Below are positions 34,646-64,000 of a stretch of 64,000 nucleotides of DNA, piece by piece. A program made the translations under genes and the position numbers. The notes beneath the pieces were generated by a model. That model did no database searches. It was given only the letters and a program-made list of their open reading frames with translations, and was not told where the DNA came from. Position 1 is the stretch's first letter; each line of letters begins with the position of its first letter. The stretch is from Astrocystis sublimbata (taxonomy: Eukaryota; Ascomycota; Sordariomycetes; Xylariales; Xylariaceae): contig JAJNNY010000058.1 in the NCBI GenBank assembly GCA_022453515.1, positions 166,122 to 230,121 on the forward strand, given 5' to 3'.

Positions 34646-35362
34646 TTGCGCCATGCAGCTCTAGGACAGATCTCAGGACTCGTGGGAAGCCCTGTATACT
34701 CCCAGAATAATCTCCTCCATAACAAGGAAGTGGGATTTGGGCCGTTTGGATCGGATTTAGAGTTATGGCATGCCATCGAGCAACGCTTGAGGAAGGGGCG
34801 AAAGGCCATCGACAGGGACACTATAAGATTCTTGAGAGACCATATGCCCCCCTCTTCACCATGTGTTTTGACCCATGGCGATTTATCCAGCACAAACATA
34901 ATCGTGCACAAAGGGACAGTCGTCGCGATCAAGGGCTTCGAAAACGCCGCATCACTCCCTGCGTGGGCGGAGTATGTTAGCATGCATTTCTGCTACTGCG
35001 CTGAGGATCAGCAATGGAAGTCACTCTTAAGCAAAAATATGCCGAGCTACCGAGCTGCGCTAGACTGGTGGTCTCTTTGGACGGCGGTCGAAGAAGGTAG
35101 TGCCGACCGAGCGAGACTGCGACACCTCAAAGACAACTGTCGGCGATGGGGCACAACGACGATTCGGGGGCAGCCGTTCAGTCCCATGAGGCTAGGTGAT
35201 GAACGTAGCCCCCCCAAACGTCTGAACGTCAACCAGGCAGGGAAAAGGGTCAAGACACGGAGGAGAGATCACGAGGACTCAATGAATGAGGAATTGTGGA
35301 CATCGAGCGCAGGAGATGATGAGATAGATGGCATTATTAATGACGATAATATCGATATGTAA
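34646..35362 (+). CDS. APH/choline-kinase-type phosphotransferase-like protein (5' end unresolved)
   Basis: This open frame encodes the C-lobe of a fungal aminoglycoside-phosphotransferase-like kinase. GPFGSDLELWHAI aligns with the GPF.S...F block, and CVLTHGDLSSTNIIV is the catalytic loop with Asp and Asn intact. It is followed by VVAIKGFENAASLPAWAEYV, where the family has IDWE.AG..P...EY. The metal-binding Asp is therefore Gly here, which would cripple catalysis. A basic tail (RRWGTTTIRGQPFSP, GKRVKTRRR) follows. The frame is open back to about 34568, but the first in-frame codon at 34646 is TTG, and the N-lobe with its Lys/Glu pair is not identified. The stop is TAA at 35360-35362. Substrate unknown. 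It may be a decaying gene, a pseudokinase, or a larger gene read through the stop (next entry). The position is inside the left palindrome arm. Confidence 0.65.
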   Translation: MRHAALGQISGLVGSPVYSQNNLLHNKEVGFGPFGSDLELWHAIEQRLRKGRKAIDRDTIRFLRDHMPPSSPCVLTHGDLSSTNIIVHKGTVVAIKGFENAASLPAWAEYVSMHFCYCAEDQQWKSLLSKNMPSYRAALDWWSLWTAVEEGSADRARLRHLKDNCRRWGTTTIRGQPFSPMRLGDERSPPKRLNVNQAGKRVKTRRRDHEDSMNEELWTSSAGDDEIDGIINDDNIDM

Positions 35363-36049
35363 CAGCTGAGTGAAAAGAGAAGCGAGCTAGATGCCAATCA
35401 ACGCCCGACAACACAACAACAACCAAAGCATCATAACGCAGCCAGAGCCACTAGCGAAGACAATACCCATATCGCCAGCCCAAACTCGGAGCAAGAATCC
35501 GAGTCCGATCACAAGCCTTCTACTACACAGATCCGGCCCTTGAGCAGACTAAGCCGACAGCTATCTGATAGTCCAGGGCGAGATTCCACAGGTCTGCGCC
35601 CCCTCAGCCTTCCAGCCTACGCTCTATCAGAGAGCGTGCGTAAGAAACTCCGTAGGACAGCGGAAATATGGGACATAGAAACGGACGCTAGTCCCTCGAC
35701 CGAGGAACCCATGAGTGCAAGGACGCCGCGTTCTCTATCTTCTCTGCGGGCAAACACTCTCAGTAGAACATCGATGAGTACGGCGGAAAAGGAGGACGGA
35801 GGGTGGTCCCCGCAGCATGCCAGTAAGCGCACGTCGATGTTGAAGAAAAGGGCCGCACCAGGCTCTCTGTATGCGGATATTAGTGCGGTATCAGCGCAAA
35901 ACAGACCGGGGCGACATGTTCGAAGTAAGTCAGAAGAGCGCAGTCCGCTGCATGGAGGGAAGATAGATAATCTCAAGACGAGGCGACAACGGCCGAAAAG
36001 TATGATGCAGCCGCCCAAGCCGACATTTGCGGAGGGTGGGACGAGATAA
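35363..36049 (+). pseudogene. In-frame continuation beyond the TAA: basic Ser/Arg-rich region
   Basis: Directly after the TAA the same frame stays open for 229 codons to the stop at 36047-36049. The peptide is coherent low-complexity sequence: a Gln/His/Asn-rich start, then Ser/Thr/Arg/Pro-rich blocks (SLRANTLSRTSMSTAEK, RHVRSKSEERSP, KTRRQRPKSMMQPPKP). Composition and codon usage continue those of the kinase tail before the stop, so the two parts were probably one gene. ATG-TAA-CAG would be ATG-CAA-CAG before a C-to-T change in a CpA context, the preferred RIP target. Alternatives are a separate gene starting at an internal Met or stop-codon readthrough. No domain recognised. Confidence 0.45.
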
Positions 36050-36471
36050 AGTGTTGGAAAAAGAGCATTCGTTGGGCGACTGCCTTGGGTTTCTATACGT
36101 ATCAGGCCATCAAGGAAACTGCAGCGTCCTTCCCTTTCTCACATATACAAGTTCCAGAAGCCTGGATTATCCCTAGGCGAGTCACGGATTAAGTCACTTT
36201 GGGATCAAGCATGTTATGAGACGTAGGGTATAGTGAATAGGTATTGAGGTCAATGCGATACAGCTAACATTACTTGTTTAGTCCCTTTTTGCAGTCGTGA
36301 TCCCTTTCCCCAAAAGCGAGAGTGTAACATCTTGAGATGTCTAAGGAGTTGTGTAGGATGATGTCTTTTAAAGCCCATAAGCTCCTCCCATCACCGCGTC
36401 TCATACTTCCAACCCCTCTCCACTTTCGGTGGCATTGTCCTCACCTCGGCATCCGAGGATTCATCAAGCAC
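36050..36471. other. Convergent 3' spacer (left arm)
   Basis: 3' flanks of the kinase-like gene (plus) and the small secreted protein gene (minus). Nothing else seen. Confidence 0.55.
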
Positions 36472-37002
36472 TCATGGGGCAAAGTTCATAGGGAAAGCAT
36501 CAGGCCCAGTGTAGATTACCTGTTCCGCAGAGCCGACTTGCTGTACAGGAAAAGTGTTTGTACTCCACTGGTAGAAACCGGTGGTGACGCCGCCGAGCGG
36601 CGGGGCGAAACTAACAATAAGGCGAGCCGTACCTTCATTGGAGGAAGGGATAGTGAAAGCCCAACTGACGGCTGGGTTGTCGCAAGCCCTCTGGCCAACT
36701 CCTGGTAGCTGCGGGCCCGTGTTGAAGCTGAAGTATTGGCAGTGAGCACTGACGATGTCGGGCAGAACGAAGTTAAACATCATCCTTCGGGGAATTGAGT
36801 CAGCCTTTTCGGACACACTTCGGCATCATGTAGTCGGGATTGTGATCATAGAAGCAGAAGCCACTCACCAAGCACCGTTGCCGAAACCCACGGTTCCGGT
36901 GGTGAAGTTGCTGACGGATGCCTGAAAATTTTCCACCTTCGGCGGGCTTGGGGCCGCTGTGACGACTGGGAGGAGAGAGGCGAGTAGCGTGAAGTACTTC
37001 AT
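36472..37002 (-). CDS. Small secreted protein (left-arm copy)
   Basis: Exon 1 37002-36869 and exon 2 36784-36472 give 148 residues. The 84-bp intron starts GTGAGT, has a CTGAC branch and splits a Trp codon (GNGA-W-MMFNF). The N-terminus is a classical signal peptide (MKYFTLLASLLPVVTAAP), so the mature protein is about 130 residues and secreted. It has two mature cysteines (HCQYF, ACDNP), possibly one disulfide, and many aromatic/Gly/Pro residues suggesting a beta-sandwich (SNFTTGTVGFGNGAW, FYQWSTNTFPVQQ). I do not recognise a family with confidence; AA1-like small secreted proteins are similar in size and pattern. An effector or surface role is only a possibility. A (GGATGAT)n microsatellite lies in its leader at about 37145-37175. 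Confidence 0.75.
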
Positions 37003-39193
37003 TTTTGATCCGGAAGTATGTGATGATATTGGATTGCTTTTGATGTTTCGAATACGGTAGCAAGGCAGGCTTGGAGTTCCAAAACGAGTATGCGAGAGTA
37101 GAATGGTGGAATGGTGGAATGGCGATGCACGATGGTCCGCGAGGGTGATGATGGATGATGGATGATGGATGATGGGCTATGTTGTTGTTCTTGTTGTTGA
37201 AGGTCGCCAGGTTTCCAGTTCAGCATCCGATGAATAAATACTTAAACACCCGAGGCAGCCCAGTGTTGGGAGGAGCATCGTCGCTGCCGAGTATGGCAAG
37301 GCAACTTAACGGCAAGAGCCTCCTGATGCCCACCTGCAACATTTGGAAGCCATGCCTCAACCTCGAACCTGTCCGTAGGTACACGAGCTGCAGGGGAAAC
37401 ATTGAATCTACCTAGGCAAACCAAAGCACATGATGTCATGAGTGATCGAGTGATCATGTCTTCGAGGTGTCGTCTGAGCATCCTCAGGATTTGGTCTCTC
37501 TGGAGGCAGTTGCAGACAGCGATGACTCATAGATGAAGCCAGGAAGACAGTGTATGTGTTCAGTGCGCAAGATCACGAGGAAAGAAGGCAGCCGCGGCCA
37601 GTCAAAGTGGTCTACGGTGGCCCATTGCTGCATCTCTAAATCTGTGCCATATCCCCCGTAATTTCTTGATTCACACACACCCTCTCACACCCTCTCACAC
37701 CTACGCGATTAACGTATGCCTACGCAGCTCCTATTTCGCATGCGCGCTTTCTATTTCGTAGGCGTACTATATGGGTACTAAGTAGGTACATAGGTACATA
37801 TACGCGTCGTATGTGGTTTGTGTAGGTGACTGCCTAGCGCGGCGGGCTTGGCATTGGCTTGGCATGTACTCCGGCGTAGGCTGTGGCGTAGGCTGTGGCG
37901 TGGCCTAAAAGAGTGGGCCTGTATGAGCTACGCGGGCTAGGAATTACCTACGCAGGGAGCCCGTGGACTGTAGCGTAGGGTAGGTAGGCACCTACACAGA
38001 CACCTTCACTCATATATTCCTACACCCTAGGGTAGACGTACTAAAATTATGGGGGATCTGGCACAGATTTAGAGATATAGCAATGGGCCACCGTAGTGGT
38101 CTCTACCTACCTAACATGCTGCCTACTTAATGTACTATAAGTAGGTACCTACCTAGGTAGGCACTTGGACTGTACTTGAAGTGGTGATATCAATCAATGA
38201 TAAATTGTGTTGTACTTACTAGGTTGGTTTCAAGATCCATAGGACTTTTAACTTCTTGTACGCCAAATGTTCATCACTTCACAGCATTGATGGCCATTCT
38301 ATTCTTTGGGAACCAGAATGGCTACGACCTAGGTACCTATAACTGCCACCCGTTATTCAAACCGTGAGCTGCTTGCATCGTATTCACCACAAGTAGGATG
38401 ATCGGGGAGCAAGTGGAAGGAACCAGGTGTTGCAATGCTCGGTCGCGATAGCCGTCGCGGTCGAGAATGAGAGAAAGACTAGCGCGAAATGACGCGACGA
38501 AGTTGACTGCCTGCCTCGACTGCCCACAGGTGACGACAGCAATTGGCCGTCACTACCTGAGGTACATTCTATATTGGTACCTACAATTCGCCCATGGGCA
38601 ACCACTCTCGTCACTACTGATATGTAACCTACCTCACGTCTTATTGCCTTTTCATACTAAGTACCTATTCCAAATGCCGAGAACCTTATATTTCAGGCTC
38701 GAGGCAGATCGAGTAAGCACAATTTCTGCACCCCTGCCACTCACAGACAAAAGAGGCGTTTTCAGCTTCCAATTTCCCCAAGAAACTGCCCGGATCCTGC
38801 CCCGGCTCACCAAATCACGGCCTTTCCCCGCATCCGACAATCTGTGTCACCAATCGGACAGTATGACATGATTGGATGCCTCTTCGACTCCCTGGAGGGT
38901 TGTTGCGACAGTATGCAGGGCCCACAGGGGTTCGGACAAGCCAACGAGACCACCGTACCAAAGAACCGCAACGCGGCGGTGAATCAAGATGGCGGGCAAC
39001 GCTTACAGTCATAACCATAACCGACTTGATCAAGCCTGCAGTACGGCTGTTCTAACTTTCCACGCGCATGAACCGCGGCAGGGGTTGGCCAGACTAGGAA
39101 GTCGACCTAAGTTTCTCACAAAGCAGAATCAGCCCGAAATCTGAGACTCGCAGCGACGATAGTCACTGAATCGCAATTGCCTCGCACTCCATC
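37003..39193. other. Intergenic region holding a MITE (left arm)
   Basis: Divergent promoter region between the secreted-protein gene and the MFS gene. It contains the 479-bp inverted-repeat element (listed separately) and many TAGGTA motifs at 38101-38160 and 38326-38340. No supported gene. Confidence 0.6.
37615..38093. mobile_element. MITE-like element with ~50-bp terminal inverted repeats (left arm)
   Basis: The element starts CGGTGGCCCATTGCTGCATC and ends with its inverted counterpart ...CAATGGGCCACCG; the ~50-bp ends match at 46 positions. Three of the four mismatches are G/A or C/T. A TA dinucleotide flanks both ends (37613-37614 and 38094-38095), the target duplication of Tc1/mariner/pogo-type transposases. 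The 479-bp interior has no open frame for a transposase, so it would be a non-autonomous element moved in trans. The interior contains repeated GCGTAGGCTGTG units and TAGGTA motifs. Confidence 0.75.
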
Positions 39194-40917
39194 ATGACAG
39201 AAAAAGAGATAGGCGTCGACGTAGAGGGGCACAAGCAGCAGCAGCAGCAATTCGAGGAGCATGAGGGACAGCATGCTGTCAAAGGCGAGCCAGCTACTCC
39301 TGCCGTCCTCGCCTCACCTAAAGAAGTGAGAGCGCTGCTCCGACGCCAGGACAAGCGTATCATCCCTCTGAGCGCGACCATCTACTTCCTCGCGTACCTC
39401 GACCGGTCGAACATCGGCAACGCGAGGGTTCTTAACGCAAATACGAAGAATGACATGATGACGGAGACGCACACCACCGATTTCCAGTTCACCATAGCCC
39501 TGATGATCTTCCTCGTCGGCTATTTTCTATTCGAGGTGCCTTCCAATATTCTACTTAAAAAGTTCCGGCCGTCGAGATGGCTGGCCTTTTTGATGGGGTC
39601 TTGGGGTCTTATAACCATTGGACTTGGCGGTGTTCGTAGCTACCCTCAAATCACTGGAGTACGGTTTCTACTAGGCGTGTTCGAAGCGTGAGTTCTTCGT
39701 GTCTTGCTTCGAGATGTTTTGGCTTTGCGAGGAATGCAGTTTGCTGACTTAATCATGGCAGTGGCCTCTTTCCAGGTCTCGTCTACTACTTGACGTTCTG
39801 GGTAAGTTACTGTTACGCGCCACGAGCAGTCTAGATGCTAGATGTCATTACTGGAATCTTTTTATGATTTCAAGACATGTAAACTGACGTTATTCATACG
39901 ATCACAGTACAGGACAGATGAACGCAGCGTCCGGGTCGCTTTCATTCTATCCAGCGCGACGCTGGCAGGTGCTTTCGGCGGAGCAATCGCTTACGGTGTT
40001 GGTAACATCAACCAGGTCCATGGGCTCTCCGGCTGGCGCTGGCTTTTCATCCTCGAAGGCATTCCATCAGTCCTGTCGTCATTATTCGTCTGGTTTATCC
40101 TCCCCGACTACCCGGAAAGTGCTGCATGGCTCTCCGAGGGCGAGAAGGAGCTTGCAGCACAGCGCCTGGCCATTGAGGGTGCCAAAGGATCAGAGTCCGC
40201 TCTCACTTGGAGTGATGTCAGAGAAACCCTGACCGACTGGAGGCTGTATGGGCACTATGCCATCTATTTCGCTGTTTCGCTCCCCTTCAGCTCGCTATCC
40301 CTCTTCACGCCTTCGATTGTGTCCGGGCTGGGATACAAGGATCTCCACGCCCAATTGCTGACGGTGCCCCCTTGGGCTATCGCCTATGGTACGTCTGTCT
40401 CGATTCTCATGCACGCATACAAAGGCAACTGTAGCTGACGATAGCAGTCGTATCAATCCTCAACTCATGGTCTGCGGACCACTTCAATGCCCGTGGCGTC
40501 CATTGCGCCGGGCTCGCAGCAATTGGCGCAGCAGGCTTCCTAGCATCCGCGCTCTTGCCGCCAACCGCGTACGCGAGCCGATACGGCACCCTGATTGTTG
40601 GCACATCGGGTGCATTTGCATGCATCCCGCCCATGCTGGGGTGGCTGACCTCTAACATGTGGAGCACGGGTTCGATTGGGCTGGCCGTCGCGCTCAATGT
40701 CAGCATTGGTGCGGGGTTGGGCCAGATGCCTGGCGTCTGGATCTACAAGACCGAAGAGGCTAAACGGGGATATCCGACGGGGCATGGCGTTAACGCTGCC
40801 ATGTTGTTCTTTGTCACCATCGGTGCCTTGTGCCTGAGGGTATTCTACGGTCGGAAGAACAAGCAGGCCGTCAGGGCCGCACCCGAGGGCACCACGCCTA
40901 GATTATACGCACTGTAA
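39194..40917 (+). CDS. MFS transporter, anion:cation symporter (Dal5/allantoate permease) family, left-arm copy
   Basis: Four exons, 39194-39687, 39762-39801, 39908-40388 and 40448-40917, give 494 residues with about 12 membrane spans. Intron donors are GTGAGT, GTAAGT and GTACGT, and branches are CTGAC. The first span carries the ACS signature FLAYLDRSNIGNAR; next come EVPSNILLKKF and SGWRWLFILEGIPSV (loop 4-5), and FLPDYPE is represented by ILPDYPES. The family takes up small organic anions such as allantoate, nicotinate, pantothenate and aromatic or sugar acids. The N-terminal 50 residues are cytosolic and include a Gln run. The tannase gene starts 688 bp downstream on the same strand, so a released phenolic acid is a reasonable guess for the substrate (inference). 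Confidence 0.95.
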
Positions 40918-41605
40918 AGGGTTCTAGCCAGAGCTTTCATATCTGTTTAATATGCGTGATAGGATACCAGGACAACTGATAGGTAGAATGACGTAGTCAA
41001 ATTCTTTAATTTCCAGATTTGTCAGTTTGAGTTCGGTCCTATTGCTCGCCGATGAAAATGGCGTCTATCGTGACGCCGTCACAACGCCGCATTGGGAAGA
41101 TCTGGAGATCTGCAGTCCGTACCTAGGGGGTAGCAGTTCTTTGTACCCCAGATTTTGGTCGACCAGCTCCTGATAGACCTGCGGCCTAGATCATAACTAG
41201 ACAAAGGTGTGTTTCGACGATGTGAACTCGTCGGTAGATCGTCGTACCCCGCGTTGCGACGCCACCGGGGAAATAATATGTTGGTATCCAATGATCGTCC
41301 CGGACGACCTATCATGGCGGCCGCGGAGCTAGATTGTCTACCCAAATCACCAGCCGTATTCACGGTTCGTTCCGGTCTGCCAATTTGAAATGGGAATCAT
41401 GCGTTACTTTGCGCGGTCGCACACAAAGAAGCCAGGGCGCCGGTTGTGTAAGAGTGTTGTGTGCGTGTGTCGGCGAATGAGTTGTGTAAGTGATATCTGG
41501 AGTAGCATAAGAGCAAGGGAGCTCCCAATCGTGGTGACCGCCACTCCGCACACCACCAGGCCAGTAAAAAGCGCACAAGGCCCTCCCTCAGGTTGATTAA
41601 AAAAG
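40918..41605. other. Spacer between MFS and tannase genes (left arm)
   Basis: 3' UTR of the transporter gene and promoter of the tannase gene. No coding signal. Confidence 0.6.
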
Positions 41606-43547
41606 ATGCGTTCATACTGCTTGGGAAAGCTGGCAGCGATTGGCCTTGCTACGTTAGTAGCGACGGCCGCGTCGTCCATTCATGACGGAGGACAGAAAGG
41701 CGCTGGCTGCAACGCAACGGCATTGGCCAAGGTCCTACCAGCCAACGCGAAGATCCAGCGGATCGAGGCTGTAGAGGCGGGTAGTACGTACGGCGATGGA
41801 GAAGAAGACGATCTCAACTATCCCATCCAGCCCACCAATCTACCGGCGCTATGTGCTGTGACAGTCGAGGTGACGAGCTCCAACATCTCGTCATACCGAG
41901 TCGGCATCTTCCTCCCCGTGGAGTGGAACAACAGGTTCCTGGCGACTGGTAATGGCGGCTTTGGAGGTGGCATCAACTGGATCGACATGGGAGCCGGGGC
42001 CCAGTACGGCTTCGCGGTGACCTCGACGGACACGGGCCACAATTCCAAGTCCACGGACGTGGCCTGGGCCCTCGACAATCCCGGATCGAAGATCGACTGG
42101 GGCTGGCGCGCGATCCACGGATCCGTGACGATCGGGAAGCTGATCACGGAAGCGCACTATGGGCATCCGTCCTCCTACTCGTATTACAGCGGCTGCTCGA
42201 CCGGCGGCCGCCAGGGTCTCAAGGAGATACAGAAATTCCCCGACAGCTTTGACGGCGTCTTGGTGGGCAGCCCGGCATGGTACACCAGCCACTTGAACAT
42301 GTGGGCGATCCAAGTCGCGACATACAACTGGCCCGAGGACGAGCCCAAGCACATCCCCTGGGAACTCCTGCCCGAACTCGGCACCGAGATCCTCAAGCAG
42401 TGCGATGACATTGACGGTGCTGCGGACGGCATCGTCAGTCTCCCAGGGCTCTGCGACGTGGACCTCGGGAAGCTGCTGTGCGACAAGCCCGGCGCGAACC
42501 AATCGGCCTGCGTCACGGAGGCGCAGGCGCAGACGCTGAAAAACGTGTACAGCGACTGGAAGAGCTCGAGCGGCGAGCTCCTGTACACGGGGCTGTCGCC
42601 GGGTTCCGAGGCGCAGATGTACACGGTGCTGAACTACTCGGAGTCGTCCGGCTACGGCATCAACTACGCGCGGTATTTCGTGCTCGACAACGCATCCTTT
42701 GCCTTCCAAGACTTCAACGAGTCCGTGGCGTTGCTGGCGCAGCGCACAGATCCCGGAAATCCCACGGCCGACAAATACGACCTCGCCGACTTCCGGGACC
42801 GCGGAGGTAAGATGCTCATGTACCATGGCGCGGCAGACGGACTTGTGCCATTCACGGGCTCGAACTTGTATTACAATCGTGTGGTGGACAAGATGGGGGG
42901 CAACCTGACCGCGACTCGCGATTTTTTCAAGTATTTCCAGGTCCCCGGAATGCAACACTGCTATAACACGCCAGTGGGTGAGTTGATTTTCCAAATACAG
43001 CATGCAGTGTGCAGTGTGGCATGCATGCACACGATTCACGTTTGCCACAAATGCTGACATCTCGCTTCTGAAAAAGACGCACCGTGGGCCTTCGGCGGCT
43101 CATCTCAGGCGAGCACCATGGGCAATGATACGTGGTCTGTGCCCGGGTTCAAAGATGCGAAGCACGACATCCTCCTCGCGCTTATAGATTGGGTGGAGAA
43201 GAATGTTACAGTCGACCAAATCGTGGCTACGACCTGGAACGAGCCCACGAACATCACGTCAGGAGTGCTCAAACAGCGACCGATTTGTCCCTACCCAGAG
43301 ATGGCAAGGTGGGACGGCGAGGGTGACATCAACGACGCGCAAAGCTGGAGCTGCGGGTGAGTCTATTCCTCTGTATCATTGTGTTGACACAGATACGCCG
43401 TATTAGATGAGCTGACATTGAAGCGAAAGCGGCAATGTGCATACTCGCCCTTCTTCGACACCTGCTCCAACCAGCGAGGCACAACGATTGTGGTGGGAGT
43501 CTGGCGTGGCGTTGGTTACTATTCTGGCAGTGATTCTCTCGTGGTAG
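41606..43547 (+). CDS. Tannase/feruloyl esterase with C-terminal membrane anchor (left-arm copy)
   Basis: Secreted serine esterase of the tannase/FaeB family, which cleaves gallate or hydroxycinnamate esters. Exons 41606-42977, 43077-43356 and 43424-43547 give 591 residues. An N-terminal signal peptide (KLAAIGLATLVATAAS) is present. The CS-D-HC catalytic signature is complete: SGCSTGG with Cys197-Ser198, AADGLVP with Asp411, QHC with His451-Cys452, the two cysteines forming the disulfide that joins Ser and His. A calcium-loop-like DDIDGAADGIV lies at 267-277. The third exon is my call: reading through the GTGAGT donor at 43357 would stop two codons later, but splicing to 43424 adds a Ser/Thr/Pro linker and a hydrophobic end (SGVALVTILAVILSW). 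This suggests a tail- or GPI-anchored enzyme. Without exon 3 the protein would end WSCG. It sits between the MFS gene and the ammonium transporter. Confidence 0.93.
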
Positions 43548-44090
43548 GTGTGTATTACCCCGTGTCCATCGGTGTTTGCACATAAGCTGAATGACAGGCT
43601 TGTGCTAGGATTGTGGTAATGAGCCATTTACCCAAAAACCCTTGATTCAGCCCTGCCGTAACATATCAGATGCTAGCTGTATATAACCTCAGATAGCTTA
43701 GAAGAGACTCAATGCGTGAGCATCTCGTCCGAAGTCGCAGTCCCACACTGTATTTGTGGAGGGAATGAGAGTTACCCGCCTCCGAGTTGTCCAAGCAAAT
43801 GTACCTTCACATCGCGAGTAAAACTGTTGTTCCAATACGGTGGAATCATCCAAGTTTCCGTCTCGCGAAGACGTCAAGTAAGAATAATTGGGTATTATTG
43901 TGTGTAGGGATAGAGACCCCTTCTTTTGCAAATAATGCTGTGTATGGTCCCGCCAGCACTTGGACTGAGATAAATAGACTTAGACATATGTTCCAGCCAT
44001 ACAATATACATAGAAAACCAAGTACAAAAAATCAGGGATATCTCAAGTAAACCAGACAAGTGAAAGATCTAGCGAACATCATCTAGTTCC
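43548..44090. other. Convergent 3' spacer (left arm)
   Basis: 3' flanks of the tannase (plus) and ammonium transporter (minus) genes; nothing else seen. Confidence 0.55.
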
Positions 44091-45942
44091 TTATTTTGTT
44101 GAGCCTCTCGACACCGGTAGTGAGTTCCCAGTGCTCTCGGCGGCACTCTCGGCGGCCGCCTCCTTAGCTGGGGCCCGAGCAGACGCTCCTATTTTCTCCT
44201 GCTCCTCCATAAGTCGCGAGGAGCTCGGCGGCGACATGCCGTTGGTGTTGGCCAAATTCTGATGCTCTTCAATGCCGTGCTGAGGCACAAAGCGGTGACC
44301 GTCGGCAATGGGCTCCTCCTTGACCGGGGTCCAGGCAAGGAAATCACGACGCACTTCGACGTAGTCATACGCGAACTCGCCGAGCTGGTCATCATCCATA
44401 CCCATAAGCTCTGCTTCTTCCGAGGCGCGGAGATGCAGACCGGGCACCAAGTCGATCAGCTTCGCGATGATTGCAGACACGACGAACGAGTAGGCACATG
44501 TGGCGACGATGTACGCGATTTGAATGTACAGCTGTTTGTAGTTGTGGTTTAACCAGCCACCAGGGAAGACGCCATTGTTCACGCCATCCAAGCCAATGAT
44601 ATAAGTGGCACCGAAGAGAGCGTTGAAGATGAGTCCTACAATGCCGCCGACTGCGTGTTCCGCGAACACGTCAAGGGAATCGTCGATACCGACAAGAAAT
44701 TTGACTAAAGAGAGAATTGTTAGATGGTAGACTTTCTAGAATTGGAGGGCGAGCTTGGTCTTACCTTTGGTGGCAAAGTTGCAGCAGATGCCGGTCACAA
44801 CACCCAAGATGATAGAGGCCCACGGAGGGATGAAACCTGACGCCGGTGTAGCTGCGACAAGACCAGAGATAGTACCCGAGCACCAGCCGACCATAGACCA
44901 CTTCTTTGCAAGGCGGAAATCGAGTAGACACCAGGTCATGGCAGCGAACATAGCCGTAAGGCAAGAGTTCCAGCAGGCAATAGTGGCACGCAAGTTTGCA
45001 CCGAAGGCAGAACCTCCGTTGAATCCCAGCCATCCGAACCAAAGCAGGATCGTTCCGAGGGTGACGAGGGAAACGTTGTGGGGCCGGAAGTTGAGCATCA
45101 TCTTCTCATGACGGCGGCCGAGGACCCATGAGTATGCGAGCGCCGACATACCGGAACCGATCTCAACCGGACCACCTCCTGCATAGTCGAGCACACCATA
45201 GTTGAAGGCCCATCCATTGATATTCCAGATCCAGCACGCGAGGGGGCAGTAGACGATAGTGGCCCAGAAGAAAACGAAGATCATGGCAGGGAGCACGCGA
45301 CCGCGCTCAGCGACCGCACCGATTACGAGAGCCGCGGTGACACCACAGAACATCATCTGTCATTCTTCATCAGCTGTTTGTTTCGTATATTATGGATGTG
45401 GCGAGAATGGTATGCTTACCTGATAGAAGGAGTATAGGAGCTCGGGGATAAGAGGTGATCCGGGGGACGGCACCGCTAATGTGTTGGTGAGGCCAAAATG
45501 ATGTAAGTCGCCGATAAACCCGCTCTTGCCCGTAGTGCTGAAGGCGAGGGAATAGCCCCAAAAGTACCATTGGAAAATGACCACTGAGAACGACATCATG
45601 ACAACCCAAATGAGGGACAAGGCCGACTTTCTACGTGATAGTCCCGAGTACAGGAAGGCGATACCCGGTACCATCACTAAAACCATGCATGCTGAAATGA
45701 TAATGAAGGCTTGGTCTCCTGATTGGTACCATTGGTTCAGGTTTTCGGTGTCTGTGCAAAATATGGTGTATCAGTTAGCCACTGGCTTCTTCTTGGTATT
45801 TGCTCTTCGGTTGTCATGTATCCAGTGTCGCTATTAAAGTTGATGGGAGATGTCACATACTGGAGTCACCTCCAGTCTCCTGGTTGGTGCCATTGAACTC
45901 AACGGGGGCCCCCGTCCACGAGTACGAAGGGCGCCACGACAT
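44091..45942 (-). CDS. Ammonium transporter, Amt/Mep family, Mep1/Mep3 type (left-arm copy)
   Basis: Plasma-membrane ammonium channel/transporter. Exons 45942-45861, 45751-45420, 45356-44765 and 44704-44091 give 539 residues with 11 expected spans. Signatures: GIAFLYSGLSRRKSALSL, the DYAGGGPVEIGSG family motif, LLWFGWLGFNGGS and DVFAEHAVGGIVG. The pore twin-His pair is altered: the first position is Glu203 (PVEIG) while the second, His352, is kept. The same Glu is known in yeast Mep1 and Mep3, unlike Mep2. The cytosolic C-terminus (about 120 residues) ends in an Ala/Glu/Ser-rich tail. Expression is probably under nitrogen control: a TATA-like box and a GATA site lie upstream (separate entry). 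It is identical to the right-arm copy. Confidence 0.96.
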
Positions 45943-52466: not shown

Positions 52467-52742
52467 AGAGTATGGACTTCCGCATCGGCGCTCGCTCACA
52501 TGTTAATGTTTTCCCTTCCCCTTCAAGAATTCCCGTCCTACAAGCAATATACCCAGCCTTTGAAGTATTCAATTTTTTTCTTTTCAATCATTGCTTCAAT
52601 CTTGTCTACAGCGCCCTCCCAATCGAGAACCGAAAACCTGCCGCCGTCTCACGTTCTTACTGTCCCTTCCACGATCAGCCTCTGATTTGACAGAAATCAA
52701 CGGCATCGTGAACTTTCTATTCTTGTTTTTCGCGCCAGCGCC

Positions 52743-54594
52743 ATGTCGTGGCGCCCTTCGTACTCGTGGACGGGGGCCCCCGTTGAGTTCAATGGCACCA
52801 ACCAGGAGACTGGAGGTGACTCCAGTATGTGACATCTCCCATCAACTTTAATAGCGACACTGGATACATGACAACCGAAGAGCAAATACCAAGAAGAAGC
52901 CAGTGGCTAACTGATACACCATATTTTGCACAGACACCGAAAACCTGAACCAATGGTACCAATCAGGAGACCAAGCCTTCATTATCATTTCAGCATGCAT
53001 GGTTTTAGTGATGGTACCGGGTATCGCCTTCCTGTACTCGGGACTATCACGTAGAAAGTCGGCCTTGTCCCTCATTTGGGTTGTCATGATGTCGTTCTCA
53101 GTGGTCATTTTCCAATGGTACTTTTGGGGCTATTCCCTCGCCTTCAGCACTACGGGCAAGAGCGGGTTTATCGGCGACTTACATCATTTTGGCCTCACCA
53201 ACACATTAGCGGTGCCGTCCCCCGGATCACCTCTTATCCCCGAGCTCCTATACTCCTTCTATCAGGTAAGCATACCATTCTCGCCACATCCATAATATAC
53301 GAAACAAACAGCTGATGAAGAATGACAGATGATGTTCTGTGGTGTCACCGCGGCTCTCGTAATCGGTGCGGTCGCTGAGCGCGGTCGCGTGCTCCCTGCC
53401 ATGATCTTCGTTTTCTTCTGGGCCACTATCGTCTACTGCCCCCTCGCGTGCTGGATCTGGAATATCAATGGATGGGCCTTCAACTATGGTGTGCTCGACT
53501 ATGCAGGAGGTGGTCCGGTTGAGATCGGTTCCGGTATGTCGGCGCTCGCATACTCATGGGTCCTCGGCCGCCGTCATGAGAAGATGATGCTCAACTTCCG
53601 GCCCCACAACGTTTCCCTCGTCACCCTCGGAACGATCCTGCTTTGGTTCGGATGGCTGGGATTCAACGGAGGTTCTGCCTTCGGTGCAAACTTGCGTGCC
53701 ACTATTGCCTGCTGGAACTCTTGCCTTACGGCTATGTTCGCTGCCATGACCTGGTGTCTACTCGATTTCCGCCTTGCAAAGAAGTGGTCTATGGTCGGCT
53801 GGTGCTCGGGTACTATCTCTGGTCTTGTCGCAGCTACACCGGCGTCAGGTTTCATCCCTCCGTGGGCCTCTATCATCTTGGGTGTTGTGACCGGCATCTG
53901 CTGCAACTTTGCCACCAAAGGTAAGACCAAGCTCGCCCTCCAATTCTAGAAAGTCTACCATCTAACAATTCTCTCTTTAGTCAAATTTCTTGTCGGTATC
54001 GACGATTCCCTTGACGTGTTCGCGGAACACGCAGTCGGCGGCATTGTAGGACTCATCTTCAACGCTCTCTTCGGTGCCACTTATATCATTGGCTTGGATG
54101 GCGTGAACAATGGCGTCTTCCCTGGTGGCTGGTTAAACCACAACTACAAACAGCTGTACATTCAAATCGCGTACATCGTCGCCACATGTGCCTACTCGTT
54201 CGTCGTGTCTGCAATCATCGCGAAGCTGATCGACTTGGTGCCCGGTCTGCATCTCCGCGCCTCGGAAGAAGCAGAGCTTATGGGTATGGATGATGACCAG
54301 CTCGGCGAGTTCGCGTATGACTACGTCGAAGTGCGTCGTGATTTCCTTGCCTGGACCCCGGTCAAGGAGGAGCCCATTGCCGACGGTCACCGCTTTGTGC
54401 CTCAGCACGGCATTGAAGAGCATCAGAATTTGGCCAACACCAACGGCATGTCGCCGCCGAGCTCCTCGCGACTTATGGAGGAGCAGGAGAAAATAGGAGC
54501 GTCTGCTCGGGCCCCAGCTAAGGAGGCGGCCGCCGAGAGTGCCGCCGAGAGCACTGGGAACTCACTACCGGTGTCGAGAGGCTCAACAAAATAA
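52743..54594 (+). CDS. Ammonium transporter, Amt/Mep family (right-arm copy)
   Basis: Exons 52743-52824, 52934-53265, 53329-53920 and 53981-54594 give the same 539-residue protein as the left-arm copy, including Glu203 in place of the first pore His and His352 at the second. Donors GTATGT, GTAAGC and GTAAGA and all acceptors are identical. If the palindrome is an assembly artefact this gene does not exist as a second locus. Confidence 0.93.
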
Positions 54595-55137
54595 GGAACT
54601 AGATGATGTTCGCTAGATCTTTCACTTGTCTGGTTTACTTGAGATATCCCTGATTTTTTGTACTTGGTTTTCTATGTATATTGTATGGCTGGAACATATG
54701 TCTAAGTCTATTTATCTCAGTCCAAGTGCTGGCGGGACCATACACAGCATTATTTGCAAAAGAAGGGGTCTCTATCCCTACACACAATAATACCCAATTA
54801 TTCTTACTTGACGTCTTCGCGAGACGGAAACTTGGATGATTCCACCGTATTGGAACAACAGTTTTACTCGCGATGTGAAGGTACATTTGCTTGGACAACT
54901 CGGAGGCGGGTAACTCTCATTCCCTCCACAAATACAGTGTGGGACTGCGACTTCGGACGAGATGCTCACGCATTGAGTCTCTTCTAAGCTATCTGAGGTT
55001 ATATACAGCTAGCATCTGATATGTTACGGCAGGGCTGAATCAAGGGTTTTTGGGTAAATGGCTCATTACCACAATCCTAGCACAAGCCTGTCATTCAGCT
55101 TATGTGCAAACACCGATGGACACGGGGTAATACACAC
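54595..55137. other. Convergent 3' spacer (right arm)
   Basis: Mirror of 43548-44090; nothing seen. Confidence 0.55.
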
Positions 55138-57079
55138 CTACCACGAGAGAATCACTGCCAGAATAGTAACCAACGCCACGCCAGACTCCCACCACAATCG
55201 TTGTGCCTCGCTGGTTGGAGCAGGTGTCGAAGAAGGGCGAGTATGCACATTGCCGCTTTCGCTTCAATGTCAGCTCATCTAATACGGCGTATCTGTGTCA
55301 ACACAATGATACAGAGGAATAGACTCACCCGCAGCTCCAGCTTTGCGCGTCGTTGATGTCACCCTCGCCGTCCCACCTTGCCATCTCTGGGTAGGGACAA
55401 ATCGGTCGCTGTTTGAGCACTCCTGACGTGATGTTCGTGGGCTCGTTCCAGGTCGTAGCCACGATTTGGTCGACTGTAACATTCTTCTCCACCCAATCTA
55501 TAAGCGCGAGGAGGATGTCGTGCTTCGCATCTTTGAACCCGGGCACAGACCACGTATCATTGCCCATGGTGCTCGCCTGAGATGAGCCGCCGAAGGCCCA
55601 CGGTGCGTCTTTTTCAGAAGCGAGATGTCAGCATTTGTGGCAAACGTGAATCGTGTGCATGCATGCCACACTGCACACTGCATGCTGTATTTGGAAAATC
55701 AACTCACCCACTGGCGTGTTATAGCAGTGTTGCATTCCGGGGACCTGGAAATACTTGAAAAAATCGCGAGTCGCGGTCAGGTTGCCCCCCATCTTGTCCA
55801 CCACACGATTGTAATACAAGTTCGAGCCCGTGAATGGCACAAGTCCGTCTGCCGCGCCATGGTACATGAGCATCTTACCTCCGCGGTCCCGGAAGTCGGC
55901 GAGGTCGTATTTGTCGGCCGTGGGATTTCCGGGATCTGTGCGCTGCGCCAGCAACGCCACGGACTCGTTGAAGTCTTGGAAGGCAAAGGATGCGTTGTCG
56001 AGCACGAAATACCGCGCGTAGTTGATGCCGTAGCCGGACGACTCCGAGTAGTTCAGCACCGTGTACATCTGCGCCTCGGAACCCGGCGACAGCCCCGTGT
56101 ACAGGAGCTCGCCGCTCGAGCTCTTCCAGTCGCTGTACACGTTTTTCAGCGTCTGCGCCTGCGCCTCCGTGACGCAGGCCGATTGGTTCGCGCCGGGCTT
56201 GTCGCACAGCAGCTTCCCGAGGTCCACGTCGCAGAGCCCTGGGAGACTGACGATGCCGTCCGCAGCACCGTCAATGTCATCGCACTGCTTGAGGATCTCG
56301 GTGCCGAGTTCGGGCAGGAGTTCCCAGGGGATGTGCTTGGGCTCGTCCTCGGGCCAGTTGTATGTCGCGACTTGGATCGCCCACATGTTCAAGTGGCTGG
56401 TGTACCATGCCGGGCTGCCCACCAAGACGCCGTCAAAGCTGTCGGGGAATTTCTGTATCTCCTTGAGACCCTGGCGGCCGCCGGTCGAGCAGCCGCTGTA
56501 ATACGAGTAGGAGGACGGATGCCCATAGTGCGCTTCCGTGATCAGCTTCCCGATCGTCACGGATCCGTGGATCGCGCGCCAGCCCCAGTCGATCTTCGAT
56601 CCGGGATTGTCGAGGGCCCAGGCCACGTCCGTGGACTTGGAATTGTGGCCCGTGTCCGTCGAGGTCACCGCGAAGCCGTACTGGGCCCCGGCTCCCATGT
56701 CGATCCAGTTGATGCCACCTCCAAAGCCGCCATTACCAGTCGCCAGGAACCTGTTGTTCCACTCCACGGGGAGGAAGATGCCGACTCGGTATGACGAGAT
56801 GTTGGAGCTCGTCACCTCGACTGTCACAGCACATAGCGCCGGTAGATTGGTGGGCTGGATGGGATAGTTGAGATCGTCTTCTTCTCCATCGCCGTACGTA
56901 CTACCCGCCTCTACAGCCTCGATCCGCTGGATCTTCGCGTTGGCTGGTAGGACCTTGGCCAATGCCGTTGCGTTGCAGCCAGCGCCTTTCTGTCCTCCGT
57001 CATGAATGGACGACGCGGCCGTCGCTACTAACGTAGCAAGGCCAATCGCTGCCAGCTTTCCCAAGCAGTATGAACGCAT
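55138..57079 (-). CDS. Tannase/feruloyl esterase with C-terminal anchor (right-arm copy)
   Basis: Exons 57079-55708, 55608-55329 and 55261-55138. The 591-residue product is identical to the left-arm copy: signal peptide, Cys197-Ser198 / Asp411 / His451-Cys452, and hydrophobic C-terminus from exon 3. The same doubt about locus duplication applies. Confidence 0.9.
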
Positions 57080-57767
57080 CTTTTTTAATCAACCTGAGGG
57101 AGGGCCTTGTGCGCTTTTTACTGGCCTGGTGGTGTGCGGAGTGGCGGTCACCACGATTGGGAGCTCCCTTGCTCTTATGCTACTCCAGATATCACTTACA
57201 CAACTCATTCGCCGACACACGCACACAACACTCTTACACAACCGGCGCCCTGGCTTCTTTGTGTGCGACCGCGCAAAGTAACGCATGATTCCCATTTCAA
57301 ATTGGCAGACCGGAACGAACCGTGAATACGGCTGGTGATTTGGGTAGACAATCTAGCTCCGCGGCCGCCATGATAGGTCGTCCGGGACGATCATTGGATA
57401 CCAACATATTATTTCCCCGGTGGCGTCGCAACGCGGGGTACGACGATCTACCGACGAGTTCACATCGTCGAAACACACCTTTGTCTAGTTATGATCTAGG
57501 CCGCAGGTCTATCAGGAGCTGGTCGACCAAAATCTGGGGTACAAAGAACTGCTACCCCCTAGGTACGGACTGCAGATCTCCAGATCTTCCCAATGCGGCG
57601 TTGTGACGGCGTCACGATAGACGCCATTTTCATCGGCGAGCAATAGGACCGAACTCAAACTGACAAATCTGGAAATTAAAGAATTTGACTACGTCATTCT
57701 ACCTATCAGTTGTCCTGGTATCCTATCACGCATATTAAACAGATATGAAAGCTCTGGCTAGAACCCT
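57080..57767. other. Spacer between tannase and MFS genes (right arm)
   Basis: Mirror of 40918-41605; nothing seen beyond promoter and 3' UTR. Confidence 0.55.
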
Positions 57768-59491
57768 TTACAGTGCGTATAATCTAGGCGTGGTGCCCTC
57801 GGGTGCGGCCCTGACGGCCTGCTTGTTCTTCCGACCGTAGAATACCCTCAGGCACAAGGCACCGATGGTGACAAAGAACAACATGGCAGCGTTAACGCCA
57901 TGCCCCGTCGGATATCCCCGTTTAGCCTCTTCGGTCTTGTAGATCCAGACGCCAGGCATCTGGCCCAACCCCGCACCAATGCTGACATTGAGCGCGACGG
58001 CCAGCCCAATCGAACCCGTGCTCCACATGTTAGAGGTCAGCCACCCCAGCATGGGCGGGATGCATGCAAATGCACCCGATGTGCCAACAATCAGGGTGCC
58101 GTATCGGCTCGCGTACGCGGTTGGCGGCAAGAGCGCGGATGCTAGGAAGCCTGCTGCGCCAATTGCTGCGAGCCCGGCGCAATGGACGCCACGGGCATTG
58201 AAGTGGTCCGCAGACCATGAGTTGAGGATTGATACGACTGCTATCGTCAGCTACAGTTGCCTTTGTATGCGTGCATGAGAATCGAGACAGACGTACCATA
58301 GGCGATAGCCCAAGGGGGCACCGTCAGCAATTGGGCGTGGAGATCCTTGTATCCCAGCCCGGACACAATCGAAGGCGTGAAGAGGGATAGCGAGCTGAAG
58401 GGGAGCGAAACAGCGAAATAGATGGCATAGTGCCCATACAGCCTCCAGTCGGTCAGGGTTTCTCTGACATCACTCCAAGTGAGAGCGGACTCTGATCCTT
58501 TGGCACCCTCAATGGCCAGGCGCTGTGCTGCAAGCTCCTTCTCGCCCTCGGAGAGCCATGCAGCACTTTCCGGGTAGTCGGGGAGGATAAACCAGACGAA
58601 TAATGACGACAGGACTGATGGAATGCCTTCGAGGATGAAAAGCCAGCGCCAGCCGGAGAGCCCATGGACCTGGTTGATGTTACCAACACCGTAAGCGATT
58701 GCTCCGCCGAAAGCACCTGCCAGCGTCGCGCTGGATAGAATGAAAGCGACCCGGACGCTGCGTTCATCTGTCCTGTACTGTGATCGTATGAATAACGTCA
58801 GTTTACATGTCTTGAAATCATAAAAAGATTCCAGTAATGACATCTAGCATCTAGACTGCTCGTGGCGCGTAACAGTAACTTACCCAGAACGTCAAGTAGT
58901 AGACGAGACCTGGAAAGAGGCCACTGCCATGATTAAGTCAGCAAACTGCATTCCTCGCAAAGCCAAAACATCTCGAAGCAAGACACGAAGAACTCACGCT
59001 TCGAACACGCCTAGTAGAAACCGTACTCCAGTGATTTGAGGGTAGCTACGAACACCGCCAAGTCCAATGGTTATAAGACCCCAAGACCCCATCAAAAAGG
59101 CCAGCCATCTCGACGGCCGGAACTTTTTAAGTAGAATATTGGAAGGCACCTCGAATAGAAAATAGCCGACGAGGAAGATCATCAGGGCTATGGTGAACTG
59201 GAAATCGGTGGTGTGCGTCTCCGTCATCATGTCATTCTTCGTATTTGCGTTAAGAACCCTCGCGTTGCCGATGTTCGACCGGTCGAGGTACGCGAGGAAG
59301 TAGATGGTCGCGCTCAGAGGGATGATACGCTTGTCCTGGCGTCGGAGCAGCGCTCTCACTTCTTTAGGTGAGGCGAGGACGGCAGGAGTAGCTGGCTCGC
59401 CTTTGACAGCATGCTGTCCCTCATGCTCCTCGAATTGCTGCTGCTGCTGCTTGTGCCCCTCTACGTCGACGCCTATCTCTTTTTCTGTCAT
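57768..59491 (-). CDS. MFS transporter, ACS/Dal5 family (right-arm copy)
   Basis: Exons 59491-58998, 58923-58884, 58777-58297 and 58237-57768 encode the same 494-residue transporter as the left-arm copy, with YLDRSNIGNAR in the first span and the loop motif SGWRWLFILEGIPS. Confidence 0.92.
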
Positions 59492-61682
59492 GATGGAGTG
59501 CGAGGCAATTGCGATTCAGTGACTATCGTCGCTGCGAGTCTCAGATTTCGGGCTGATTCTGCTTTGTGAGAAACTTAGGTCGACTTCCTAGTCTGGCCAA
59601 CCCCTGCCGCGGTTCATGCGCGTGGAAAGTTAGAACAGCCGTACTGCAGGCTTGATCAAGTCGGTTATGGTTATGACTGTAAGCGTTGCCCGCCATCTTG
59701 ATTCACCGCCGCGTTGCGGTTCTTTGGTACGGTGGTCTCGTTGGCTTGTCCGAACCCCTGTGGGCCCTGCATACTGTCGCAACAACCCTCCAGGGAGTCG
59801 AAGAGGCATCCAATCATGTCATACTGTCCGATTGGTGACACAGATTGTCGGATGCGGGGAAAGGCCGTGATTTGGTGAGCCGGGGCAGGATCCGGGCAGT
59901 TTCTTGGGGAAATTGGAAGCTGAAAACGCCTCTTTTGTCTGTGAGTGGCAGGGGTGCAGAAATTGTGCTTACTCGATCTGCCTCGAGCCTGAAATATAAG
60001 GTTCTCGGCATTTGGAATAGGTACTTAGTATGAAAAGGCAATAAGACGTGAGGTAGGTTACATATCAGTAGTGACGAGAGTGGTTGCCCATGGGCGAATT
60101 GTAGGTACCAATATAGAATGTACCTCAGGTAGTGACGGCCAATTGCTGTCGTCACCTGTGGGCAGTCGAGGCAGGCAGTCAACTTCGTCGCGTCATTTCG
60201 CGCTAGTCTTTCTCTCATTCTCGACCGCGACGGCTATCGCGACCGAGCATTGCAACACCTGGTTCCTTCCACTTGCTCCCCGATCATCCTACTTGTGGTG
60301 AATACGATGCAAGCAGCTCACGGTTTGAATAACGGGTGGCAGTTATAGGTACCTAGGTCGTAGCCATTCTGGTTCCCAAAGAATAGAATGGCCATCAATG
60401 CTGTGAAGTGATGAACATTTGGCGTACAAGAAGTTAAAAGTCCTATGGATCTTGAAACCAACCTAGTAAGTACAACACAATTTATCATTGATTGATATCA
60501 CCACTTCAAGTACAGTCCAAGTGCCTACCTAGGTAGGTACCTACTTATAGTACATTAAGTAGGCAGCATGTTAGGTAGGTAGAGACCACTACGGTGGCCC
60601 ATTGCTATATCTCTAAATCTGTGCCAGATCCCCCATAATTTTAGTACGTCTACCCTAGGGTGTAGGAATATATGAGTGAAGGTGTCTGTGTAGGTGCCTA
60701 CCTACCCTACGCTACAGTCCACGGGCTCCCTGCGTAGGTAATTCCTAGCCCGCGTAGCTCATACAGGCCCACTCTTTTAGGCCACGCCACAGCCTACGCC
60801 ACAGCCTACGCCGGAGTACATGCCAAGCCAATGCCAAGCCCGCCGCGCTAGGCAGTCACCTACACAAACCACATACGACGCGTATATGTACCTATGTACC
60901 TACTTAGTACCCATATAGTACGCCTACGAAATAGAAAGCGCGCATGCGAAATAGGAGCTGCGTAGGCATACGTTAATCGCGTAGGTGTGAGAGGGTGTGA
61001 GAGGGTGTGTGTGAATCAAGAAATTACGGGGGATATGGCACAGATTTAGAGATGCAGCAATGGGCCACCGTAGACCACTTTGACTGGCCGCGGCTGCCTT
61101 CTTTCCTCGTGATCTTGCGCACTGAACACATACACTGTCTTCCTGGCTTCATCTATGAGTCATCGCTGTCTGCAACTGCCTCCAGAGAGACCAAATCCTG
61201 AGGATGCTCAGACGACACCTCGAAGACATGATCACTCGATCACTCATGACATCATGTGCTTTGGTTTGCCTAGGTAGATTCAATGTTTCCCCTGCAGCTC
61301 GTGTACCTACGGACAGGTTCGAGGTTGAGGCATGGCTTCCAAATGTTGCAGGTGGGCATCAGGAGGCTCTTGCCGTTAAGTTGCCTTGCCATACTCGGCA
61401 GCGACGATGCTCCTCCCAACACTGGGCTGCCTCGGGTGTTTAAGTATTTATTCATCGGATGCTGAACTGGAAACCTGGCGACCTTCAACAACAAGAACAA
61501 CAACATAGCCCATCATCCATCATCCATCATCCATCATCACCCTCGCGGACCATCGTGCATCGCCATTCCACCATTCCACCATTCTACTCTCGCATACTCG
61601 TTTTGGAACTCCAAGCCTGCCTTGCTACCGTATTCGAAACATCAAAAGCAATCCAATATCATCACATACTTCCGGATCAAAA
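59492..61682. other. Intergenic region holding the MITE (right arm)
   Basis: Mirror of 37003-39193 with the same inverted-repeat element and TAGGTA motifs; no gene. Confidence 0.55.
60592..61070. mobile_element. MITE-like element (right arm)
   Basis: Mirror copy of the 37615-38093 element, flanked by the same TA dinucleotides (60590-60591 and 61071-61072). It was inserted before the inverted duplication, since position and flanks are shared. Confidence 0.72.
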
Positions 61683-62213
61683 ATGAAGTACTTCACGCTA
61701 CTCGCCTCTCTCCTCCCAGTCGTCACAGCGGCCCCAAGCCCGCCGAAGGTGGAAAATTTTCAGGCATCCGTCAGCAACTTCACCACCGGAACCGTGGGTT
61801 TCGGCAACGGTGCTTGGTGAGTGGCTTCTGCTTCTATGATCACAATCCCGACTACATGATGCCGAAGTGTGTCCGAAAAGGCTGACTCAATTCCCCGAAG
61901 GATGATGTTTAACTTCGTTCTGCCCGACATCGTCAGTGCTCACTGCCAATACTTCAGCTTCAACACGGGCCCGCAGCTACCAGGAGTTGGCCAGAGGGCT
62001 TGCGACAACCCAGCCGTCAGTTGGGCTTTCACTATCCCTTCCTCCAATGAAGGTACGGCTCGCCTTATTGTTAGTTTCGCCCCGCCGCTCGGCGGCGTCA
62101 CCACCGGTTTCTACCAGTGGAGTACAAACACTTTTCCTGTACAGCAAGTCGGCTCTGCGGAACAGGTAATCTACACTGGGCCTGATGCTTTCCCTATGAA
62201 CTTTGCCCCATGA
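61683..62213 (+). CDS. Small secreted protein (right-arm copy)
   Basis: Exons 61683-61816 and 61901-62213 encode the same 148-residue secreted protein as the left-arm copy. The leader (about 61510-61540) carries the CCATCAT microsatellite with the same unit number as the left arm. Confidence 0.72.
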
Positions 62214-62635
62214 GTGCTTGATGAATCCTCGGATGCCGAGGTGAGGACAATGCCACCGAAAGTGGAGAGGGGTTGGAAGTATGAGACGCGGTGATGGGAG
62301 GAGCTTATGGGCTTTAAAAGACATCATCCTACACAACTCCTTAGACATCTCAAGATGTTACACTCTCGCTTTTGGGGAAAGGGATCACGACTGCAAAAAG
62401 GGACTAAACAAGTAATGTTAGCTGTATCGCATTGACCTCAATACCTATTCACTATACCCTACGTCTCATAACATGCTTGATCCCAAAGTGACTTAATCCG
62501 TGACTCGCCTAGGGATAATCCAGGCTTCTGGAACTTGTATATGTGAGAAAGGGAAGGACGCTGCAGTTTCCTTGATGGCCTGATACGTATAGAAACCCAA
62601 GGCAGTCGCCCAACGAATGCTCTTTTTCCAACACT
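62214..62635. other. Convergent 3' spacer (right arm)
   Basis: Mirror of 36050-36471; nothing seen. Confidence 0.5.
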
Positions 62636-63325
62636 TTATCTCGTCCCACCCTCCGCAAATGTCGGCTTGGGCGGCTGCATCATACTTTTCGGCCGTTGTC
62701 GCCTCGTCTTGAGATTATCTATCTTCCCTCCATGCAGCGGACTGCGCTCTTCTGACTTACTTCGAACATGTCGCCCCGGTCTGTTTTGCGCTGATACCGC
62801 ACTAATATCCGCATACAGAGAGCCTGGTGCGGCCCTTTTCTTCAACATCGACGTGCGCTTACTGGCATGCTGCGGGGACCACCCTCCGTCCTCCTTTTCC
62901 GCCGTACTCATCGATGTTCTACTGAGAGTGTTTGCCCGCAGAGAAGATAGAGAACGCGGCGTCCTTGCACTCATGGGTTCCTCGGTCGAGGGACTAGCGT
63001 CCGTTTCTATGTCCCATATTTCCGCTGTCCTACGGAGTTTCTTACGCACGCTCTCTGATAGAGCGTAGGCTGGAAGGCTGAGGGGGCGCAGACCTGTGGA
63101 ATCTCGCCCTGGACTATCAGATAGCTGTCGGCTTAGTCTGCTCAAGGGCCGGATCTGTGTAGTAGAAGAAGGCTTGTGATCGGACTCGGATTCTTGCTCC
63201 GAGTTTGGGCTGGCGATATGGGTATTGTCTTCGCTAGTGGCTCTGGCTGCGTTATGATGCTTTGGTTGTTGTTGTGTTGTCGGGCGTTGATTGGCATCTA
63301 GCTCGCTTCTCTTTTCACTCAGCTG
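62636..63325 (-). pseudogene. Ser/Arg-rich extension after the TAA (right-arm copy)
   Basis: Mirror of 35363-36049 in the same frame, with one extra in-frame codon (Ser) from a 3-bp unit gain near 63163-63171. The same TAA separates it from the kinase part. Confidence 0.45.
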
Positions 63326-64000
63326 TTACATATCGATATTATCGTCATTAATAATGCCATCTATCTCATCATCTCCTGCGCTCGATGTCCACAATTCCTC
63401 ATTCATTGAGTCCTCGTGATCTCTCCTCCGTGTCTTGACCCTTTTCCCTGCCTGGTTGACGTTCAGACGTTTGGGGGGGCTACGTTCATCACCTAGCCTC
63501 ATGGGACTGAACGGCTGCCCCCGAATCGTCGTTGTGCCCCATCGCCGACAGTTGTCTTTTGAGGTGGTCGCAGTCTCGCTCGGTCGGCACTACCTTCTTC
63601 GACCGCCGTCCCAAAGAGACCACCAGTCTAGCGCAGCTCGGTTAGCTCGGCATATTTTTTGCTTAAGAGTGACTTCCATTGCTGATCCTCAGCGCAGTAG
63701 CAGAAATGCCATGCTAAACATACTCCGCCCACGCAGGGAGTGATGCGGACGTTTTTCGAAGCCCTTGATCGCGACGACTGTCCCTTTGTGCACGATTATG
63801 TTTGTGCTGGATAAATCGCCATGGGTCAAAACACATGGTGAAGAGGGGGCATATGGTCTCTCAAGAATCTTATAGTGTCCCTGTCGATGGCCTTTCGCCC
63901 CTTCCTCAAGCGTTGCTCGATGGCATGCCATAACTCTAAATCCGATCCAAACGGCCCAAATCCCACTTCCTTGTTATGGAGGAGATTATTCTGGGAGTAT
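63326..64000 (-). pseudogene. APH-type kinase-like gene, frame broken by 1-base indels (right-arm copy, cut by window)
   Basis: Mirror of the gene ending at 35362. Between 63555 and 63850 there are nine single-base gains and one single-base loss against the left copy, so the frame shifts repeatedly through the catalytic region. Eight of the ten simply lengthen an existing base or run by one. The left arm reads through the same stretch as one open frame, so the left is the correct version. These are more likely sequencing errors than real decay. Confidence 0.7.

Follow-up and report, generated by a model that had tools for sequence, protein, structure and literature searches.

Palindromes are a described product of long-read sequencing. 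They were reported in 40-50% of amplified PacBio reads, some of which carried up to 15 of them, and in 0.5% of the reads from an unamplified control, where they arose partly from missed adapters (PMC6218980). About a third of the reads were palindromic in amplified nanopore data (PMC13265396). The chimeras formed by multiple displacement amplification are similar in several ways to the locus that we describe here: they are exact inverted duplications with a small loop and arms of read length, they include serial inversions (to which the two fold-backs in contig C182, below, may correspond), and they have spoiled long-read assemblies (PMC6218980, PMC13265396). The present palindromes, including the C182 series, differ in that they are known from contigs and not from reads, and in that their centres are strongly AT-rich, a property that is not mentioned for amplification chimeras in the portions of PMC6218980 and PMC13265396 drawn on here. 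Palindromes that result from missed SMRTbell adapters are also mirrored at the level of the read and also give palindromic contig ends, but their axes are expected at random fragment ends, which does not fit centres that are AT-rich hairpins and whose loop contains unmirrored bases from the genome.

Inverted duplications also form in living cells. Fold-backs of the ODIRA kind use short interrupted inverted repeats (PMC10766183), and our locus resembles both ODIRA and the hairpin-capped fold-backs of yeast in that an interrupted inverted repeat was already in place where the inverted junction lies (PMC10766183). Unlike ODIRA, it shows no amplified segment, no selected gene and no second junction in the assembly, and it is accompanied by many other fold-backs at the contig ends of a single assembly. 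A brief literature search found no publication on this particular assembly.

A giant palindrome that stops with its contig

The stretch of DNA that we analysed (the window, 64,000 nucleotides) consists of bases 166122-230121 of contig C144, which is 230,121 bp long and belongs to a 42.6-Mb assembly of 189 contigs. Alignment of the window to itself returned a single inverted match, 34696-64000 against itself at 99.877% identity (2 mismatches and 34 gap letters, with every difference counted double), so the giant palindrome noticed in a preliminary description of the sequence is present as described. The arms are each about 14.64 kb long and 99.88% alike, and the axis is at 49341.5. Between the strictly mirrored arms (Table 1) lie 22 nt that form a partial mirror, with a 6-bp stem, a small loop and three mismatched pairs. 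The spacer of 4 nt given in the preliminary description fits the innermost loop, but the unmirrored or partly mirrored centre is really 22 nt long.

Over the interval 35517-49330 the arms are without any difference except for one unit of a TG microsatellite (46918 versus 51766). All the other differences are confined to the centre or to the outermost ~830 bp (63170-64000). In this tail, which forms the final ~830 bp of C144, the right arm has 12 extra bases and lacks 1 relative to the left arm, and these differences resemble uncorrected read errors. The predicted proteins had been described as identical for all the duplicated genes, which does not hold for the outermost one, an APH-like ORF that is frameshifted on the right arm and recoverable there only across two frames (61-65%).

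Table 1. Features of the palindromic half of the window, in window coordinates.
Feature	Position	Strand	Remarks
Outermost APH-like ORF	34646-35362		Open on the left arm
Left arm	34696-49330	+	True genomic sequence; runs on from the unique part 1-34695 with no junction at 34696
MFS transporter exons (PF07690)	39194-40438	+	Genuine; mirror copy, almost certainly a phantom, at 58247-59491 (-)
Tannase/feruloyl esterase ORF (PF07519)	41606-43057	+	Genuine; mirror copy, almost certainly a phantom, at 55628-57079 (-)
Ammonium transporter exons (PF00909)	44091-45356	-	Genuine; mirror copy, almost certainly a phantom, at 53329-54594 (+)
AT-rich element region	49211-49472	.	Both mirrored halves of the centre
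Fold-back centre	49331-49352	.	22 nt, partly mirrored, in the AT-rich quasi-palindromic element
Right arm	49353-64000	-	Mirror copy of the left arm, very probably an artefact; stops with the final base of C144
Contig-end tail	63171-64000	-	Relative to the left arm, 12 bases added and 1 lost; ORF split over two frames

Position 64000 of the window is the last base of C144, and the sequence there is ordinary arm sequence. The palindrome stops at this point because the contig stops there, so the position is a contig end and not a biological boundary. A stable biological palindrome would have unique sequence outside both of its arms, and here the right arm runs to the end of the contig. We also looked for a biological boundary at 34696 by searching the assembly with window 34200-35600 and found none: this segment matches C144 alone, at its own position and at the contig-end copy. 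Queries made from the arm ends and the centre match only C144, contig C66 and pieces of a repetitive element (see below), so the arms of the window are single-locus sequences.

An unfolded path through the same centre

Contig C66 is 19,684 bp long, and its bases 8524-19684 match window 49.36-60.52 kb with one indel outside the centre. C66 then continues beyond the window centre, unfolded, into 4.15 kb of other sequence that we call X. The assembly thus contains both a folded path (in C144) and an unfolded path (in C66) at the centre of the window. On the far side of X, C66 reaches a second AT-rich element and there turns back on itself, its bases 1-4272 mirroring 4308-8579 with zero differences. 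We dropped the idea that an 8.5-kb transposon in C66 splits the palindrome, the 8.58 kb being ordinary sequence, 4.15 kb of it, folded back on itself. Among the 40 of 84 candidate matches that were scored, X occurs only in C66 and in its own mirror, apart from pieces of the element, and in the chromosome the left arm is probably followed by X. X (C66 4311-8459) contains methyltransferase-like ORFs and a 263-aa ORF that has no Pfam match. We searched for a gene bridging the junction between the arm and X and found none; the 263-aa ORF stops before the element.

The unmirrored bases beside the window centre (ACTATAT) match what C66 has, unfolded, immediately beyond the axis; two differences lie nearby. 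The match is what is expected if a copied strand overran the axis before snapping back, while the two differences between the window junction and C66 remain unexplained in an artefact account.

Fold-backs at other contig ends

The palindrome in the window has many counterparts. We searched the assembly with the outermost 200 bp of each of 36 contig ends, a non-random sample whose members were nevertheless not picked for fold-backs. In 9 of the 36 this terminal sequence is repeated in inverted orientation in the same contig at 98-100% identity (95% interval 12-42%). The 36 ends comprise two samples. The first consists of 21 ends from 15 contigs, 14 of which we had met through element searches (giving 20 of the 21 ends) and one, C15, through a telomere search; four of its ends are folded back (the ends of C127 and C159 and the starts of C179 and C57). 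For the second we took 15 contig starts at steps through the contig numbers, and at least five of them are folded back, with 40 of 85 candidates scored (the starts of C20, C35, C45, C55 and C120). Altogether 60 contig ends were fetched and 41 were queried, and the 19 omitted ones were AT-rich or telomeric, belonged to contigs already known to fold back at another end, or were just not used. Five of the 41 queried ends were chosen knowingly and stand outside the 36 (the starts of C144, C65 and C146, and the ends of C66 and C52); among these, the start of C65 is a fold-back. The start of C25 was rejected as a fold-back and counted as a dispersed repeat, as it has a 97% inverted copy and a 97% direct copy in C25, and one copy in C127. 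Two 97% copies of this start sequence, inverted relative to each other, lie at bases 29759-34712 of C25, and the sequence is also present in C127.

All seven of the single fold-backs for which the end piece was fetched (C144, C66, C75, C52, C111, C132 and C141) reach the last base of their contig, and none of the seven has a unique right flank; C132 and C141 were read at their ends. At least four of the recurrent fold-backs turn at different points of the same type. A folded and an unfolded version also exist at a second locus, where contigs C75 and C52 have an identical far end: C75 folds at a copy of the element, and C52 passes straight through that copy and then folds ~790 bp later. Contig C182 folds back twice in series, first near 97.70 kb and again near 113.07 kb, and the contig ends in a tail that is 96% identical. 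The mirror that we first predicted for the C182 end was mismatched, and the second fold-back accounts for this.

Some of these contig ends have further features. The terminal 100 bp of C182 are also present within C100, in both orientations. C141 contains, at about 217.7-259.5 kb, a palindrome larger than that of the window, with arms of ~20.9 kb and a mirror that extends as far as the final base of C141. Each of these arms also contains the end sequence of C113, and C141, C58 and C113 have a common end sequence.

AT-rich centres and a MITE-like element

The centres of the fold-backs are strongly AT-rich. In 16 of 17 the GC content over 200 bp is 0.27 or less, the exception being C159 (0.40), as compared to 5 of 506 background windows drawn from non-overlapping loci (1.5% of 613 windows in a version with overlapping loci). 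The window centre has a GC content of 0.135 over 200 bp. The mirror is plain inside the 200 bp at 14 of the 17 centres, and the axis is not clearly mirrored in C52, C55 and C35.

Copies of an AT-rich, palindromic, MITE-like element form the centres of C66 and C75, and apparently also those of C159 and C65. The element region at the window centre has 67-68% similarity to the element at which C66 folds back (4148-4432), and further partial copies of it occur elsewhere in the genome. Taken in its unfolded form from C66, the window-centre element is predicted to form a hairpin with imperfect pairing (-9.3 kcal/mol, z -2.16), which beats shuffled sequences modestly (5 of 200 shuffles fold as well). 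Another copy of the MITE-like element, ~80% similar to the C66 copy, is located at window 11659-11845, where there is no fold-back, and related copies are found at many interior places of the assembly. We examined loci of roughly 3 kb around 22 interior copies and found no inverted repeat longer than 300 bp at any of them, so the presence of the element alone is insufficient for a fold-back.

One fold-back is anomalous. In C132 (274500-281000) it is set in AT-rich sequence that contains internal repeats of the telomere type, and its arms are 5% diverged, with 153 transitions among 158 differences, situated ~0.5-2.75 kb from the centre. The outermost 2.2 kb of these arms differ by one indel only. 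The pattern of transitions is unlike read error, and could be due to RIP-type divergence or to consensus mixing of repeat copies. We also considered a telomere-linked hairpin end for C144 and rejected it: telomere repeats are present in the assembly, but none is in C144 among the places listed.

Origin of the palindrome

The preliminary description offered two readings of the palindrome, a recent real fold-back or a chimera, and made no choice between them. We favour the chimera because of the unfolded path in C66, the recurrence of fold-backs at 9 of 36 contig ends, and the involvement of other folding points in at least four of these. The arm stops at a contig terminus, the phenomenon recurs at unrelated places in the assembly, and unfolded versions exist for two loci (C66/C144 and C52/C75), all as expected of an artefact. 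With high confidence, we conclude that the palindrome is an assembly artefact, a snap-back fold-back at an AT-rich quasi-palindrome that the assembler took for the continuation of C144. What we observe directly is the palindrome itself, its stop where the contig ends, the unfolded alternative, the repetition of the fault at other contig ends and the AT-richness of the centres; we infer that the folding back took place in vitro, at the level of reads, while the DNA was amplified or made into a library. The simplest account is snap-back priming at AT-rich hairpins in one of these steps. A strand being copied from the left arm would meet the AT-rich quasi-palindromic element at ~49.3 kb, its 3' end would fold onto itself a few nucleotides past the hairpin axis, and synthesis would run back along its own product, giving molecules that consist of the arm, a hairpin loop and the reverse-complemented arm. 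The assembler would have extended C144 with one or a few such reads and halted where the reads end, at window 64000. The true chromosome would instead run from the left arm through the element and into the sequence at C66 4311-8459.

Palindromic subreads can also arise when SMRTbell adapters are missed or missing and the polymerase reads both strands of a fragment. In PacBio sequencing of unamplified DNA, palindromic reads are known to arise in this way (PMC6218980), and palindromes at contig ends would likewise result, but the axes should then be random fragment ends with no genomic loop. What we see instead is the AT-richness of 16 of the 17 centres, and unmirrored bases at the window centre that match the unfolded genomic sequence; the serial fold-backs in C182 also fit repeated snap-back better. 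We therefore consider missed adapters unlikely as the source, and such an origin would still mean an artefact, leaving the verdict on the palindrome unchanged. It is even harder to credit that the assembler collapsed or mis-joined inverted homologous or subtelomeric repeats without any chimeric read. Inverted copies do exist in other contigs (C141, C58 and C113, with their common end sequence), and the diverged arms of C132 are in an AT-rich region bearing telomere repeats, but the arms of the window are single-locus sequences and an exact mirror at a hairpin is not expected from a mis-join, which makes this explanation highly improbable.

A real fold-back in the organism would begin with an in vivo break or a fork-level template switch at the AT-rich hairpin, leading to a hairpin-capped end and then to an inverted duplication, either fixed or mosaic among nuclei, in the manner of ODIRA or breakage-fusion. 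ODIRA junctions have an interrupted inverted repeat within about a hundred bp, and the 22-nt centre in its AT-rich quasi-palindrome is a site of the kind used in vivo (PMC10766183). The near-identity of the arms is as expected after a very recent event, but it is equally expected of an artefact. Against a real event, the unfolded path and the other folding points coexist with the palindrome in the assembly, the unique right flank is absent at all of the single fold-backs that were checked, and the frequency of folded contig ends would demand many events in one genome, each of them cut by a contig end. We consider such an origin very unlikely. The same low probability applies to a broader version in which the AT-rich elements are fold-back hotspots in vivo, some nuclei or broken chromosomes are hairpin-capped, and this mosaic instability has been assembled at many loci. 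The palindrome is almost certainly not real in the fungus, and a real fold-back in some of its nuclei is very unlikely. Neither C132 nor the two unexplained differences at the junction alter our verdict that it is an artefact.

Consequences for gene content and annotation

The nearest named relatives of the tannase ORF are proteins from Xylaria, Nemania and other Xylariales (best match 74%), so the fungus is Xylaria-like. Its second copy on the right arm, and those of the ammonium transporter and MFS transporter genes, are almost certainly phantoms, as the preliminary description had foreseen for the case of a chimera. A real doubling of this transporter-tannase-ammonium permease block, its other suggestion, is unsupported in view of the unfolded path in C66 and the recurrent fold-backs at contig ends. 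The right half of the palindrome should stay unannotated, because it yields a false second tannase/feruloyl esterase, ammonium transporter and MFS transporter. Splitting palindromic reads before assembly should improve this assembly, in which a similar fault probably touches a sizeable share of the contig ends, judging by the ends that we sampled, and any apparently recent inverted duplication of genes close to one of its contig ends should be viewed with suspicion.
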